From the NCBI GenBank assembly GCA_947476065.1, contig CANJPG010000026.1:1-40114 (forward strand): a stretch of 40,114 nt of DNA, given 5' to 3'. Of this stretch, positions 7,368 through 36,759 are shown piece by piece (position 1 is the stretch's first letter; every line of letters begins with the position of its first letter). A program made the translations under genes and the position numbers. The notes under the pieces are model-generated. The model saw only the letters and a program-made list of their open reading frames with translations. It made no database searches and was not told the DNA's origin. This stretch comes from Fidelibacterota bacterium. Its GTDB lineage: Bacteria; Pseudomonadota; Alphaproteobacteria; Rhodospirillales; Rhodospirillaceae.

Positions 7368-8309
7368 ATGGCTAATACGCGCACCAAAGTACTGATCCTG
7401 GGCTCCGGCCCTGCCGGCCTAACGGCCGCCATATATGCCGCCCGTGCCAATCTGGCGCCCATCATCGTCGCGGGCATGCAGCCCGGCGGTCAAATGACCA
7501 TCACCACGGACGTGGAGAACTATCCGGGCTTTCCGGACGTCATCCAGGGCCCTTGGCTGATGGAACAGATGCAAAAGCAGGCCGAGCACGTCGGCGCCAG
7601 GGTCATGCACGACCTGGTCGTCAGCATCGACCTGTCCAAACGGCCGTTCACCTGCACCGGCGATTCGGGCGATGTCTACACGGCCGATACCTTGATTGTG
7701 ACCACAGGCGCTTCGGCGCGCTGGCTTGGCCTCGAGTCTGAAAAGAAATACCAGGGCTTCGGCGTATCGGCTTGCGCCACCTGTGACGGCTTTTTCTTCC
7801 GCGGCAAGGAAGTCGTGGTCGTCGGCGGCGGCAATACCGCCGTCGAGGAAGCGCTTTACCTCACCAACCACGCGACCAAAGTGACGCTGGTACATCGCCG
7901 TGATTCGCTGCGCGCAGAGAAGATCCTGCAAAAGCGCATGTTCGATCATCCGAAGGTCAAAGTGGTCTGGGATTCCGCCGTCGAGGAAGTCATCGGCAAG
8001 GAAGGCCCCTTGGGCGTGACGGGCGTGCGCCTGAAGAACGTCAAGACCGGAGCGACCGAAGAGATCAAGACCGATGGTCTGTTCGTCGCCATCGGCCACA
8101 CGCCGAACACCGACCTGTTCAAGGGCGTGCTGGATATGGATGAGAACGGCTACCTCATTACGCAGGCGGATTCCACGCGCACCAATATTCCCGGCGTCTT
8201 TGCCGCAGGCGACGTACAGGACCATGTCTACCGGCAGGCGGTGACCGCGGCCGGAACGGGGTGCATGGCGGCACTGGAAGCTGATCGCTTCCTCGCCGCC
8301 AATGGTTAA
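7368..8309 (+). CDS. trxB: thioredoxin-disulfide reductase
   Basis: TrxB is a cytoplasmic FAD enzyme that reduces thioredoxin with NADPH. It has 313 residues, typical of low-molecular-weight reductases. The FAD-binding GSGPAG is at residues 12-17, followed by PGGQMTITTDVENYPGF. The redox-active pair is CATC at 136-139. The NADPH Rossmann motif is VVVGGGNTAVEEALYL, with VHRRDSLRAEK after it, and the C-terminal FAD motif is GVFAAGDVQDHVYRQAVTAAGTGCMAALEA. ATG at 7368 gives the standard N terminus; an ATG at 7361 is out of frame. A LysR gene follows 51 bp downstream in the same direction. Confidence 0.97.
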   Translation: MANTRTKVLILGSGPAGLTAAIYAARANLAPIIVAGMQPGGQMTITTDVENYPGFPDVIQGPWLMEQMQKQAEHVGARVMHDLVVSIDLSKRPFTCTGDSGDVYTADTLIVTTGASARWLGLESEKKYQGFGVSACATCDGFFFRGKEVVVVGGGNTAVEEALYLTNHATKVTLVHRRDSLRAEKILQKRMFDHPKVKVVWDSAVEEVIGKEGPLGVTGVRLKNVKTGATEEIKTDGLFVAIGHTPNTDLFKGVLDMDENGYLITQADSTRTNIPGVFAAGDVQDHVYRQAVTAAGTGCMAALEADRFLAANG

Positions 8310-8360: not shown

Positions 8361-9323
8361 ATGCCGCTACGCAGCAACGGACGTCTCGATTGGGATAAAT
8401 TGCGGGTGTTTCACGCCGTAGCCGAAGCCGGCAGCTTCACCCATGCCAGCGAAACTTTGAACCTTAGCCAATCTGCGGTCAGCCGCCAGATCAGCGCGCT
8501 TGAGGAAGCTTTGGGTGTTAGCCTGTTTCATCGCCACGCGCGCGGTCTGATCCTCACCGAGCAAGGCGACCTGCTGTACAAAACCGTGCACGACGTTTTT
8601 GCCAAGCTGAACAACGTCGAAAGCCTGCTGACCGAGACCAAAGAGAATGCCGAGGGCACATTGCGCGTGACCACGACAGTTGCCTTCGGTTCGGTATGGC
8701 TGACCGGGCGTCTGAAGGAATTCATCCGCACCTATCCGGATATTGAAGTCACGCTGCGCCTCGACGACCAGGAACTCGACCTGGCCATGCGCGAGGCCGA
8801 TGTGGCAATTCGCTTCAACGAGCCGAAGCAGCCCGATCTGGTGCAGCGTCACCTCGGTACACTACGTTCGAATCTCTACGCCTCGCCGGAATACCTGAAG
8901 GAGCGCGGGTTGCCGCAGACGCTAGCGGATTTGAACCAGCATGACGTCGTGCTGTTCGGCGAAGGTGTTGCGCCGACCAGCGCCGTGCATTGGCTCGCGG
9001 AGATTCTCAACAAGAACAACATCAATTGCCGCTCGACCTTACGCGTCAACAATCTCTACGGCATCTATCGCGCGGTGAAGGCGGGAATCGGAATCGGACC
9101 GCTGCCCGAGTATTTCCTGCAAGAAGGCCGCGGAATTGTTCAGGTGCTGCCCGACTTGGAAGGCACGCCGATCGACGCCTATTTCGTTTATCCCGAGGAA
9201 TTGCGTAATTCCGCCCGTGTCGCAGTGTTCAGGGATTACCTGGTACGTGAAATCGCCCGGGCCCGGTCGCAATTGACCGTGGTCGCAGCCCAGTCGTCGG
9301 ACACTTTGAGGACCGCCAGCTAA
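8361..9323 (+). CDS. LysR family transcriptional regulator
   Basis: A 320-residue LysR-type regulator. The N-terminal winged helix-turn-helix is clear (LDWDKLRVFHAVAEAGSF, then LNLSQSAVSRQISALEEALGVSLFHRHARG, about residues 9-65), followed by a linker helix and a periplasmic-binding-protein-like effector domain from about residue 98 (GTLRVTTTVAFGSVWL). The start ATG at 8361 is preceded by the purine-rich GGGGAAAGGG. LysR genes usually sit divergent from their targets; this one instead follows trxB in the same direction, so its target is not evident, although a redox link is possible. Downstream is the hairpin-rich region at 9578-9870. Confidence 0.92.
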   Translation: MPLRSNGRLDWDKLRVFHAVAEAGSFTHASETLNLSQSAVSRQISALEEALGVSLFHRHARGLILTEQGDLLYKTVHDVFAKLNNVESLLTETKENAEGTLRVTTTVAFGSVWLTGRLKEFIRTYPDIEVTLRLDDQELDLAMREADVAIRFNEPKQPDLVQRHLGTLRSNLYASPEYLKERGLPQTLADLNQHDVVLFGEGVAPTSAVHWLAEILNKNNINCRSTLRVNNLYGIYRAVKAGIGIGPLPEYFLQEGRGIVQVLPDLEGTPIDAYFVYPEELRNSARVAVFRDYLVREIARARSQLTVVAAQSSDTLRTAS

Positions 9324-9577
9324 GATTTTTGAATCTATTGGCGGAACTAAAGTAGGGCTGTTGAGCCGATTAAAAAATAGTCAAATGAACCAAATGGTCT
9401 TTTTTTGGCGTAAAATTTGGCTGGCTAGAGGCAATCCGCCACTCTGCGACGTTGTCACGTCCCTTGGGATAACCGCCAAAAACACCCCCATAGTTATGCG
9501 CATGCTGCATAGCGGCATGATCAATTTGCATTGGAAATGCTGGGTTTTTGTGGGTAATGTCTCTTCAGATGTTGCAA
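9324..9577. other. intergenic, no recognised feature
   Basis: Following lysR, this 254-bp stretch is noticeably more AT-rich than its surroundings and contains T-runs (around 9403-9407). No credible gene, tRNA or strong promoter was seen. If the hairpin region downstream is an independent RNA, its promoter should lie here, but no convincing -35/-10 pair was found. Confidence 0.5.
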
Positions 9578-9588
9578 CGCAGCAATCG

Positions 9589-9789
9589 GGTCCTCCCCCC
9601 GAAGCGGCCGAGTAACAAGGAAACTTGCGGTGAACGGTCCTCCCCCGGACGCCGCATGGTCTAAGGGTAGACGGGGTGTTCTAGGGTCCTCCCCCCGAAC
9701 AACACCATCGCCAGGGGTAAAACCCCGGCTACGTCTAATCAGGTGTCGAAGCCTCCCTCTAGAAACTTTCGCCCCGAGGGTCCTCCCCC
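9589..9789 (+). repeat. four copies of the 11-mer GGTCCTCCCCC
   Basis: Exact copies at 9589-9599, 9636-9646, 9685-9695 and 9779-9789, spaced 47, 49 and 94 bp apart (start to start). The last gap is about twice the others and holds the variant CCTCCCTC at 9752-9759, as if a fifth unit has decayed. A further exact copy is at 36154-36164 on the minus strand. Confidence 0.9.
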
Positions 9790-9801
9790 CTCGGGGCGAA
9801 A
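9767..9801 (+). other. perfect 12-bp hairpin with GGTCCTCCCCC loop
   Basis: TTTCGCCCCGAG (9767-9778) pairs without mismatch with CTCGGGGCGAAA (9790-9801), leaving exactly the shared 11-mer as the loop. It is the most stable unit of the array. No T-run follows directly (AACTTTATGG), so it is not an ordinary terminator. Confidence 0.85.
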
Positions 9802-9836
9802 ACTTTATGGGGGTATGTGATCACGCTCAGCCAAGC

Positions 9837-9870
9837 AAAAACGGCGCCTTTTTGGGGCGCCGTTTGGCTT
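9837..9870 (-). terminator. terminator of the aminotransferase gene, possibly bidirectional
   Basis: AAACGGCGCC (9839-9848) and GGCGCCGTTT (9856-9865) form a perfect 10-bp stem with a 7-base loop. On the minus strand the stem's own terminal TTT runs on into further T (TTTTTGC), so it fits a terminator about 20 bp after the aminotransferase stop. On the plus strand it is followed by GGCTTTATT, so it may also end the candidate RNA. Confidence 0.75.
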
Positions 9871-9887
9871 TATTGACCGGCTTAAGC

Positions 9888-13459
<3,572 letters not shown>

Positions 13460-36140: not shown

Positions 36141-36210
36141 GAAAGGCCCGGCTGGGGGAGGACCAGTCGGGCCTTTCTAAAGACTGCCTAAAATCTAGAA
36201 GGGGGGAGGG
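36141..36210 (-). ncRNA. phasin 3'UTR element with GGTCCTCCCCC hairpin loop
   Basis: On the minus strand, GAAAGGCCCG (36177-36168) and CGGGCCTTTC (36150-36141) form a 10-bp stem; after one A/C mismatch an inner CT/AG closes exactly on the loop GGTCCTCCCCC (36164-36154), the same 11-mer as the four loops at 9589-9789. A related stretch, CCCTCCCCCC (36210-36201), lies just after the phasin stop codon. Together with the terminator downstream this could be a 3'UTR-derived small RNA or a control element within the phasin mRNA. No separate promoter was identified. Confidence 0.55.
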
Positions 36211-36213
36211 ATA

Positions 36214-36576
36214 TTAGGCGGCCTTTTTGGTGGCCTTCGTCGCAACGGCGACGCCGACCTTGAAACGTTCTGCGATCGGCGAGGTCACGTCCTTGGCAAT
36301 GCTGGTCGCCATCTCGGAGACCTTCTTGCCTTCTTCGAGCGCAACTTCGATCGACTCTTGCGTCAGCTTGGTCTGGATCTGGACGAATTCGACCACGGTC
36401 TTCGCGGCGGCGAGCTTCTTGCTGGCGGCAACGGCGTCTTCGAAAGACTTGCCGGCCAAATCAACAAAATACTTCGTCATCGCCTCGTAGCCTTTTACGG
36501 CTGCGGTGTTGGTCTTCACAAAGGTGTCGAGCGTGTCCTGATTGAAAGCGGCGAAATCGGTGTAGGAGGGAGTCAT
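36214..36576 (-). CDS. phasin family protein
   Basis: A 120-residue phasin, a protein that coats polyhydroxyalkanoate granules. It is mostly helical and amphipathic (FNQDTLDTFVKTNTAAVKGYEAMTKYFVDLAGKSFEDAVAASKKLAAAKTVVEFVQIQTKLTQ pattern, described here in parts), ending in an Ala/Lys tail (VGVAVATKATKKAA). ATG at 36576 (MTPSYTDFAAFNQ) has AAGGA upstream; the frame is open to 36702, but that part is control region. The upstream region carries two TGCANTGCA sites and the 3'UTR an unusual hairpin. No PHA synthase gene is in the window. Confidence 0.9.
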   Translation of the reverse strand: MTPSYTDFAAFNQDTLDTFVKTNTAAVKGYEAMTKYFVDLAGKSFEDAVAASKKLAAAKTVVEFVQIQTKLTQESIEVALEEGKKVSEMATSIAKDVTSPIAERFKVGVAVATKATKKAA

Positions 36577-36692
36577 GGAGTTAATCCTTATGTCGTGCTG
36601 TTTACGGTGACTTGCTTGTGCAACGCGGCCGTAAAACAACCCAGGCGGCCGATTATTGTTCTTGGTCTTATGCAGCTTTTTCTGAGCCATGC

Positions 36693-36759
36693 TGCATTGC
36701 ACACAAGATGGTGACGCACCCCGTCCGCGTCAAGGAAAAATGGTGCAGTGCACACAAGA
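36693..36759 (-). promoter_or_regulatory. phasin promoter with paired TGCANTGCA sites
   Basis: Two 16-base direct repeats, TGCATTGCACACAAGA (36693-36708) and TGCAGTGCACACAAGA (36744-36759), differ at one base; each has a TGCANTGCA core. Between them on the minus strand is TTGACG (36733-36728) and, 17 bp on, CATCTT (36710-36705), so one site lies upstream of the -35 and the other at the -10/start. The TGC-rich sequence resembles sites of PhaR, the PHA-responsive repressor of phasin genes; this assignment is inference. Confidence 0.5.

Follow-up and report, generated by a model that had tools for sequence, protein, structure and literature searches.

A conserved, structured RNA with four identical anti-Shine-Dalgarno-type loops downstream of lsrB in a genus of Rhodospirillaceae

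Identification of the RNA and its architecture

Directly downstream of a LysR-type regulator gene, the 40,114-nt stretch of alphaproteobacterial DNA analysed here (contig CANJPG010000026.1, positions 1 to 40,114; hereafter the window) encodes an RNA that is real, conserved and structured, and very probably functional, its function being inferred. In the reading that we favour, to which we give a probability of roughly 0.6, it would be a trans-acting anti-Shine-Dalgarno sRNA resembling NfeR1 (alpha-r14), with its own promoter and activated by LsrB; its expression, its control by LsrB and its targets are predictions. The 5' end of the RNA probably lies near 9566, and its 3' end either beyond 9801 or at a possible second terminator near 9838–9868. 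The features of the element are as follows.

9566–9806 (+): sRNA as modelled (alignment A1, covariance model R1), 241 nt; present in 17 of 19 genus genomes, with covariation
9570–9617 (+): hairpin 1, loop UCCUCCC at 9591–9597; from folding; 3/3 inner pairs changed on both sides
9626–9656 (+): hairpin 2, loop UCCUCCC at 9638–9644; from folding; 4/6 outer pairs covary, loop the same in 9/9 relatives
9675–9706 (+): hairpin 3, loop UCCUCCC at 9687–9693; from folding; 4/6 outer pairs covary, loop the same in 9/9 relatives
9733–9759 (+): conserved segment GTCTAATCAGGTGTCGAAGCCTCCCTC, with CCTCCC in 8/9 relatives
9767–9801 (+): hairpin 4, in terminator-like position, loop UCCUCCC at 9781–9787; 14-pair stem, 2 pairs changed on both sides
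9838–9868 (+): possible second terminator ahead of a convergent aminotransferase-like gene; one terminator-like site, where shuffles would give 1.0

Compared with shuffled sequence, the fold of the region is more stable (z −2.90; 2 of 200 shuffles as stable). The first-pass annotation had reported four exact copies of GGTCCTCCCCC, each in a predicted hairpin loop. The copies, starting at 9589, 9636, 9685 and 9779 on the plus strand, and their location in hairpins were borne out, but the unpaired part is shorter than the motif: G-C pairs close each hairpin and leave only the heptamer UCCUCCC (7 nt) open, with mean unpaired probabilities of 1.00, 0.99, 0.81 (minimum 0.33) and 1.00 in hairpins 1 to 4, respectively. 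Two further details had to be corrected. The last stem has 14 pairs in both the region fold and the consensus, and 13 when folded alone; the first-pass annotation had described one stem, without saying which, as perfect with 12 bp. The supposed decayed fifth unit, CCTCCCTC (9752–9759), located within segment GTCTAATCAGGTGTCGAAGCCTCCCTC, is not decayed, as CCTCCC is kept in 8/9 relatives; it is paired in the model (mean unpaired probability 0.05) and forms no loop.

Hairpin 1 is the least constant of the four, with another C-rich loop in 3/9 relatives and an outer pairing that differs between the consensus fold and the fold of the window alone. The tail of hairpin 4 is T-rich in several relatives and weak in the window. 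Two ORFs on the plus strand (9361–9615 and 9630–9980) overlap the RNA; since the alignment of the relatives has gaps of one or two bases, it is suggested that they are not genes.

Copies of the loop in the window, the genome and the genus

With up to one mismatch allowed, GGTCCTCCCCC matched the window five times, always exactly, and none of 100 dinucleotide shuffles had five matches. The additional copy, absent from the first-pass annotation, lies on the minus strand at 36154–36164. These same five copies make up the total for the genome to which the window belongs (3.26 Mb), compared with one for the reversed pattern. Among the 19 genomes of the genus, 77 exact 11-mers were found, versus 19 for the reversed pattern. 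Sorted by place and fold, 43 of the 77 belong to the lsrB-linked RNA, 16 to the 3' region of a phasin gene and 1 to a third 3' region, while the 17 found elsewhere, outside hairpin elements, are at about the level of the reversed-pattern control (19). Five of these 17 lie 2–5 bases ahead of a potential start codon (ATG, GTG or TTG) with a frame of 79–499 aa, where the message would carry the complement. The third 3' region is that of a PII-like gene (named by eye; L128, genome G005), where a terminator-like hairpin with the GGTCCTCCCCC loop was observed in this one genome only. The phasin locus of the window comprises three features.

36214–36702 (−): phasin gene (Pfam Phasin_2, E 2.9e-23)
36186–36219 (−): companion C-rich hairpin, from folding, with the phasin stop codon inside its 5' stem arm
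36141–36177 (−): hairpin with the shared loop (11-mer at 36154–36164) in the phasin 3' region; from folding; 16 copies in 15/19 genus genomes

The phasin 3' regions were aligned for 14 loci (alignment A4), representing 14 of the 16 copies, one copy being cut by a contig end and genome G012 being represented by the second of its two only. Both sides had changed in 6 of 19 pairs, all of them in the shared-loop hairpin, and none of 500 shuffles scored as high; for the companion hairpin covariation says nothing, because 4/5 of its stem pairs never vary. A phasin-like C-terminus was readable in 12 loci, and the other three were assigned by likeness of the 3' region, the gene being cut off by the contig or fetch limit. 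The Rfam model ar14 gave 32.8 bits for the phasin 3' region (gathering score 58.8), and no description of a phasin UTR-derived sRNA was found in the open-licence literature.

Conservation and covariation

Covariance model R1, built with alignment A1 from 9 of the 17 RNA-carrying genomes of the genus, which were picked for keeping the full-length form, gave a match in 17 of the 19 genomes of the genus, the best one in each lying directly downstream of lsrB. The two misses, G004 and G006, are genomes without a full lsrB match (partial or distant LsrB match only). A match to the LysR protein, paralogues included, was present in 60 of 61 genomes, and for the 30 best of these matches the downstream sequence was extracted. 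Exact copies of the loop number four in G000, G001, G007, G014 and G015, three in G009, G011, G016 and G018, two in G002, G005, G012 and G013, and one in G003, G008 and G017, with none in G010. In G003 (L021/L051) there is no array; two tandem single-loop hairpin units, similar in their preceding sequence, are located downstream of lsrB. Across the order, R1 matched 5 of 199 genomes, 4 of these 5 being in the genus, so that under the strict search filters used the RNA looks genus-level.

In the named structure, 96.5% of the alignment cells form standard pairs, a figure favoured by the derivation of the structure from the same alignment, and the two-sided changes are the stronger part of the evidence. 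These occur in 17 of 51 pairs, 13 of them within the four hairpins; shuffles gave 9.0 ± 1.8, none of the 500 reaching this count, and slid controls at most 5. Compensatory change in the stems of related genomes, on which the first-pass annotation had made its case depend, is thus present, and its main proposal, a regulatory RNA with selected anti-Shine-Dalgarno loops on covarying stems, is well supported, its interpretation as a whole partly so.

The pairwise identities of the 11-nt loop regions of hairpins 1 to 4 are 0.76, 1.00, 1.00 and 0.98, respectively, whereas in hairpins 2 and 3 the outer stems have identities of 0.64 and 0.69; the stem of hairpin 4 has 0.91 and the whole alignment 0.67. 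Hairpins 2 and 3 therefore bear out the idea that the loop is preserved in sequence and the stem in its pairing; hairpin 1 is different, its loop being another one in 3/9 relatives.

Proposed mechanism and likely targets

We propose that LsrB, a LysR-type activator reported to be redox-responsive in relatives, would bind the ATGC-N7-GCAT box, some 64 nt ahead of the predicted start, and thereby switch on a trans-acting sRNA that has a promoter of its own immediately behind lsrB. As supported by folding and covariation, the four hairpins each hold out the heptamer UCCUCCC, and each loop may pair with GGGGAGGA-type Shine-Dalgarno sequences and block ribosome binding. With four equal seeds a hit would become more likely, and one RNA could serve several mRNAs; for NfeR1, the three anti-Shine-Dalgarno motifs are described as redundant (PMC10746234). 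The predicted targets may lean towards exported and outer-membrane uptake proteins, e.g. TonB-dependent receptors.

Paired as bare oligonucleotides, that is, leaving out the cost of the hairpin context, the loop and seven GGGGAGGAC-type ribosome sites of the window's own genome gave energies of −20.6 to −23.3 kcal/mol, compared with −7.1 kcal/mol for a made-up control site. On the same seven sites a 16S tail, which we took to be of the E. coli type, gave −11.3 to −12.8 kcal/mol; the own genome has no match to GGATCACCTCCTTN, hence its own 16S tail is not readable. In the 19 genomes, GGGGAGGAC followed by ATG after 2–9 bases was found 102 times (three of the matches being second readings of one site) versus 6 times for the reversed pattern, a difference that mainly reflects Shine-Dalgarno-like sequences ahead of ATG. 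Since reversal also reverses the ATG, that pattern is a poor control, and a second ribosome-site pattern, AAGGAGAAC, was used.

With 30 loci taken per pattern, and 4/30 and 10/30 dropped because the ORF was shorter than 60 aa, an export-like N-terminus was predicted in 15 of 26 ORFs (≥60 aa) behind GGGGAGGAC versus 4 of 20 behind AAGGAGAAC (Fisher p = 0.016), where orthologues are unmerged, row L214 is the same as own-genome locus L230, and the export rule is a simple and unvalidated one of our own. Within the own genome alone the bias was not discriminating (4/7 vs 3/6, with the rule applied by hand and the control comprising 6 of 8 loci, two having ORFs below 60 aa). The Pfam TonB plug domain was detected in 5 of 17 candidate targets, namely 1/7 from the own genome and 4/10 from the others, the latter ten having been chosen by eye, out of 30 loci, as likely exported. 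TonB-dependent receptor mRNAs are described as targets of SisA in Caulobacter (PMC12559287). The target pairing and the export bias support the proposed mechanism, without proving it.

A modest export bias that disappears when the own genome is taken by itself would also fit a broad damping of translation, in which loops resembling the 16S anti-Shine-Dalgarno tail vie with ribosomes for strong Shine-Dalgarno sequences and have no defined set of targets, CCTCC being the general anti-Shine-Dalgarno core (PMC3522020). We consider this unlikely, as the conserved loop extends beyond the core and is fixed in 9/9 relatives in hairpins 2 and 3, and as outside hairpins the 11-mer is no commoner than its reverse (17 vs 19).

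The lsrB neighbourhood, box and promoter

The sequence between the regulator gene and the RNA contains a predicted promoter and a candidate regulatory site.

8361–9323 (+): lsrB/vtlR-type LysR regulator gene, directly downstream of trxB (Pfam HTH_1 and LysR_substrate; gene order)
9496–9510 (+): ATGC-N7-GCAT, a LysR-type box proposed as the LsrB site; both ATGC and GCAT invariant across 15 aligned sequences; position about −64 relative to the predicted start
9531–9560 (+): predicted promoter, TTGGAA (9531–9536), 18 nt, TAATGT (9555–9560); from conserved columns

The LysR-type gene is preceded by a thioredoxin-reductase-like gene (7368–8309; Pfam Pyr_redox_2), and the element is bounded on its other side by a convergent aminotransferase-like gene (9888–11267, named by eye). 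In Alphaproteobacteria, vtlR/lsrB is reported to follow trxB in a well-conserved arrangement, and in Agrobacterium the AbcR sRNAs come next (PMC7486931); it is because of this synteny that the regulator is called LsrB here. The closest named LsrB records, with 86–90% identity, come from metagenome-assembled genomes.

In the promoter alignment (15 sequences, mean column identity 45%), columns 9532, 9534, 9555, 9556 and 9560 are invariant and 9533 is nearly so; a generic sigma-70 promoter scan of the region returned no site. Within 700 nt downstream, 61 of 78 lsrB loci contain ATGC-N7-GCAT, 75 times in all (80 loci were fetched, and two with less than 300 nt downstream were left out), which amounts to 1.39 per kb versus 0.029 per kb in other parts of these loci, the sites not being independent since 20/80 lsrB records are Thalassospira. 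Spacings of 3–6 and 8–11 in lsrB loci gave 0 to 0.074 per kb. The window box contains T-N11-A, a motif noted for LysR regulators (PMC8844928); compared by eye, it does not fit the rhizobial consensus GCAT-N3-TG-N3-T. LsrB is reported to activate NfeR1 from a site at −72 to −57, with which the distance of the window box, about −64 from the predicted start, agrees (PMC10746234).

The promoter hexamers and the LysR-type box conserved between lsrB and the RNA argue against the hairpins being a structured 3' UTR of the lsrB mRNA, or being processed from it, in which they would protect or terminate the message and the loop would be kept for a protein or an RNase. The element does lie directly after lsrB, hairpin 4 is terminator-like in position, and the same loop recurs in two other 3' regions, those of the phasin gene and of one PII-like gene; nevertheless, a terminator does not need the identical loop in further hairpins, and we judge this reading improbable.

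The box and promoter also bear on the choice of strand. It is very unlikely that the minus strand acts instead, through four GGGAGGA-loop hairpins binding a CsrA/RsmA-like protein in the manner of CsrB, since both signals are on the plus strand and the downstream genes differ among relatives (by eye). GGA, which is the rule in Csr RNAs, would be presented in each loop, and when folded the reverse complement is more stable than most shuffles (z −1.97; 8 of 200 shuffles as stable). If every helix other than the invariant pair 7–17 is counted, the plus strand has scarcely more G-U cells (8) than A-C cells (7), but in hairpins 2 and 3 the outer stems have six G-U cells versus one A-C cell. Chance folding of a C-rich repeat, as the C-rich 11-mer repeated within 201 bp might suggest, is hardly credible in view of covariation beyond all shuffles, presence in 17/19 genomes and an excess of copies over shuffles.

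A different lsrB-linked RNA in other Rhodospirillales

Downstream of lsrB in other Rhodospirillales, a different RNA was found, with ACGTCTCCCAGACGT, GAAGCCTCCCTG and a terminator; its exact core is present in 40 of 57 loci scanned. In many Thalassospira loci (L066, L067, L070, L071, L075 and others) the core is present twice in tandem and each copy is preceded by a separate ATGC-N7-GCAT box, an arrangement reminiscent of tandem AbcR1/AbcR2. A covariance model (R2), built from 24 sequences of other lsrB loci, matched 111 of 289 alphaproteobacterial genomes and 87 of 224 genera. When the 30 best-scoring R2 loci were fetched, 23 had a LysR relative (44–63% identity) inside the stretch, and among the 28 with a core that could be located, 19 had the box upstream; in 20 of these 30 loci, which were scanned against Rfam, no family was present at gathering score. 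The R2 hairpin holds CUCCCA in many other genera, and since this is AbcR motif M1 of Brucella (PMC5461406), kinship of R2 with AbcR is suggested.

As a common model that would include the window RNA, R2 was rejected on score (3.7 bits, E 0.23 with filters off), and up to E 1 it matched neither the window nor any of the 15 genus loci among 29 sources. Segment GTCTAATCAGGTGTCGAAGCCTCCCTC of the window RNA resembles GAAGCCTCCCTGTT of R2, with an R2 score there of only 3.7 bits. From position, box and this short shared segment, we put forward as a hypothesis that the two RNAs may share a common descent.

Extending this further, LsrB might be wired across the Alphaproteobacteria to an adjacent anti-Shine-Dalgarno sRNA of common origin outside Rfam, from which both AbcR and the window RNA would be derived; the genus would have rebuilt this RNA as an array, with loop number as regulatory dose, and placed the heptamer in the 3' region of the phasin mRNA, so that a redox regulator and carbon storage would share a base-pairing code. 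We regard this wider scheme as possible but doubtful. The natural series of up to four identical seeds within one genus poses the question of why anti-Shine-Dalgarno loops should be multiplied per RNA. The findings carry the LsrB–sRNA link known from Rhizobiales over into Rhodospirillales and yield a sharp binding-site prediction; they also point to R2 as a widespread lsrB-adjacent RNA (no Rfam match at gathering level in 20 loci) that is testable in cultured genera, e.g. Thalassospira.

Comparison with known sRNA families

At gathering level, Rfam gave nothing for the window, a DNA similarity search in plasmids gave no match, and no description of the window RNA was found in the open-licence literature. 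Sub-threshold matches, to Pxr, the rnk leader, STnc320, ar14 and BjrC80 in the window and to ar7, ar14, suhB and others in relatives, were rejected as being below the cut-off. Membership in a known family, raised by the first-pass annotation, is supported by no Rfam model. For Pxr (RF01812, gathering 80), the score of 36.8 bits at 9763–9872 comes from hairpin 4 and the second terminator; for suhB (RF00519, gathering 41), no match was listed for the window, and scores were below the cut-off in L026 (31.4 bits) and L114 (26.5 bits).

Repeated C-rich units of the anti-Shine-Dalgarno type are also found in cuckoo/CcsR RNAs of alphaproteobacteria, which are defined by CCUCCUCCC loops, two per RNA. 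The window RNA has another loop, with four per RNA, and is set apart from them by this definition. In addition, CcsR1–4 of Rhodobacter sphaeroides are described as four separate sRNAs that arise by processing of a transcript that includes a DUF1127 gene (PMC10253847), whereas the window has one RNA downstream of lsrB.

The alpha-R8 sRNAs (MmgR, which corresponds to suhB, and SisA–D of Caulobacter) have a 10-mer with an anti-Shine-Dalgarno signature, and MmgR is reported to affect PHB storage (PMC12559287). They differ from the window RNA in having one shared 10-mer rather than four identical loops (PMC12559287).

AbcR1 and AbcR2 (ar15) of Rhizobiales resemble the window RNA in their location downstream of lsrB/vtlR in Agrobacterium and in their C-rich pairing motifs, and AbcR1 is reported to be activated by the lsrB/vtlR regulator there (PMC7486931, PMC8844928). 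The window RNA shares this position, directly downstream of an lsrB that is named from synteny. In Brucella, the first hairpin of AbcR is described as carrying motif M1 (CUCCCA) and the stretch between hairpins motif M2 (GUUCCC) (PMC5461406); by eye, 9566–9806 contains neither. The ar15 model (RF02345) was absent among the 17 Rfam matches listed up to E 10 for 9324–9900, and genome searches with it gave one weak match below the cut-off in 41 genomes, outside the genus, and none in 142, with nothing in 14 control genomes either, which makes these genome searches uninformative.

The closest parallel in design is alpha-r14/NfeR1 of Sinorhizobium meliloti, in which several hairpins are described as exposing an identical unpaired anti-Shine-Dalgarno motif on unlike stems (PMC10746234), so that the type of design to which the CCUCC-type loops had initially been compared is documented. 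In the Rfam model of ar14, as in the window RNA, the last motif lies in the terminal hairpin. The two differ in that NfeR1 is described with three CCUCCUCCC motifs (PMC10746234) and the window RNA has four UCCUCCC loops. The latter lie within GGUCCUCCCCC, and the three identical CCUCCUCCC hairpins that characterize ar14 were not found; CCTCCTCCC occurs 8 times in the own genome, with no copy on the window's contig. The ar14 model (RF02344) gave 20.3 bits at 9667–9803, versus a gathering score of 58.8. What is shared with alpha-r14, namely several anti-Shine-Dalgarno loops on unlike stems, is a likeness of design, not of descent. For NfeR1, AbcR and SisA, the mode of action that we propose for the window RNA has itself been reported or proposed; the multi-hairpin anti-Shine-Dalgarno design is known from rhizobia, and its four-loop form looks like a new variant.
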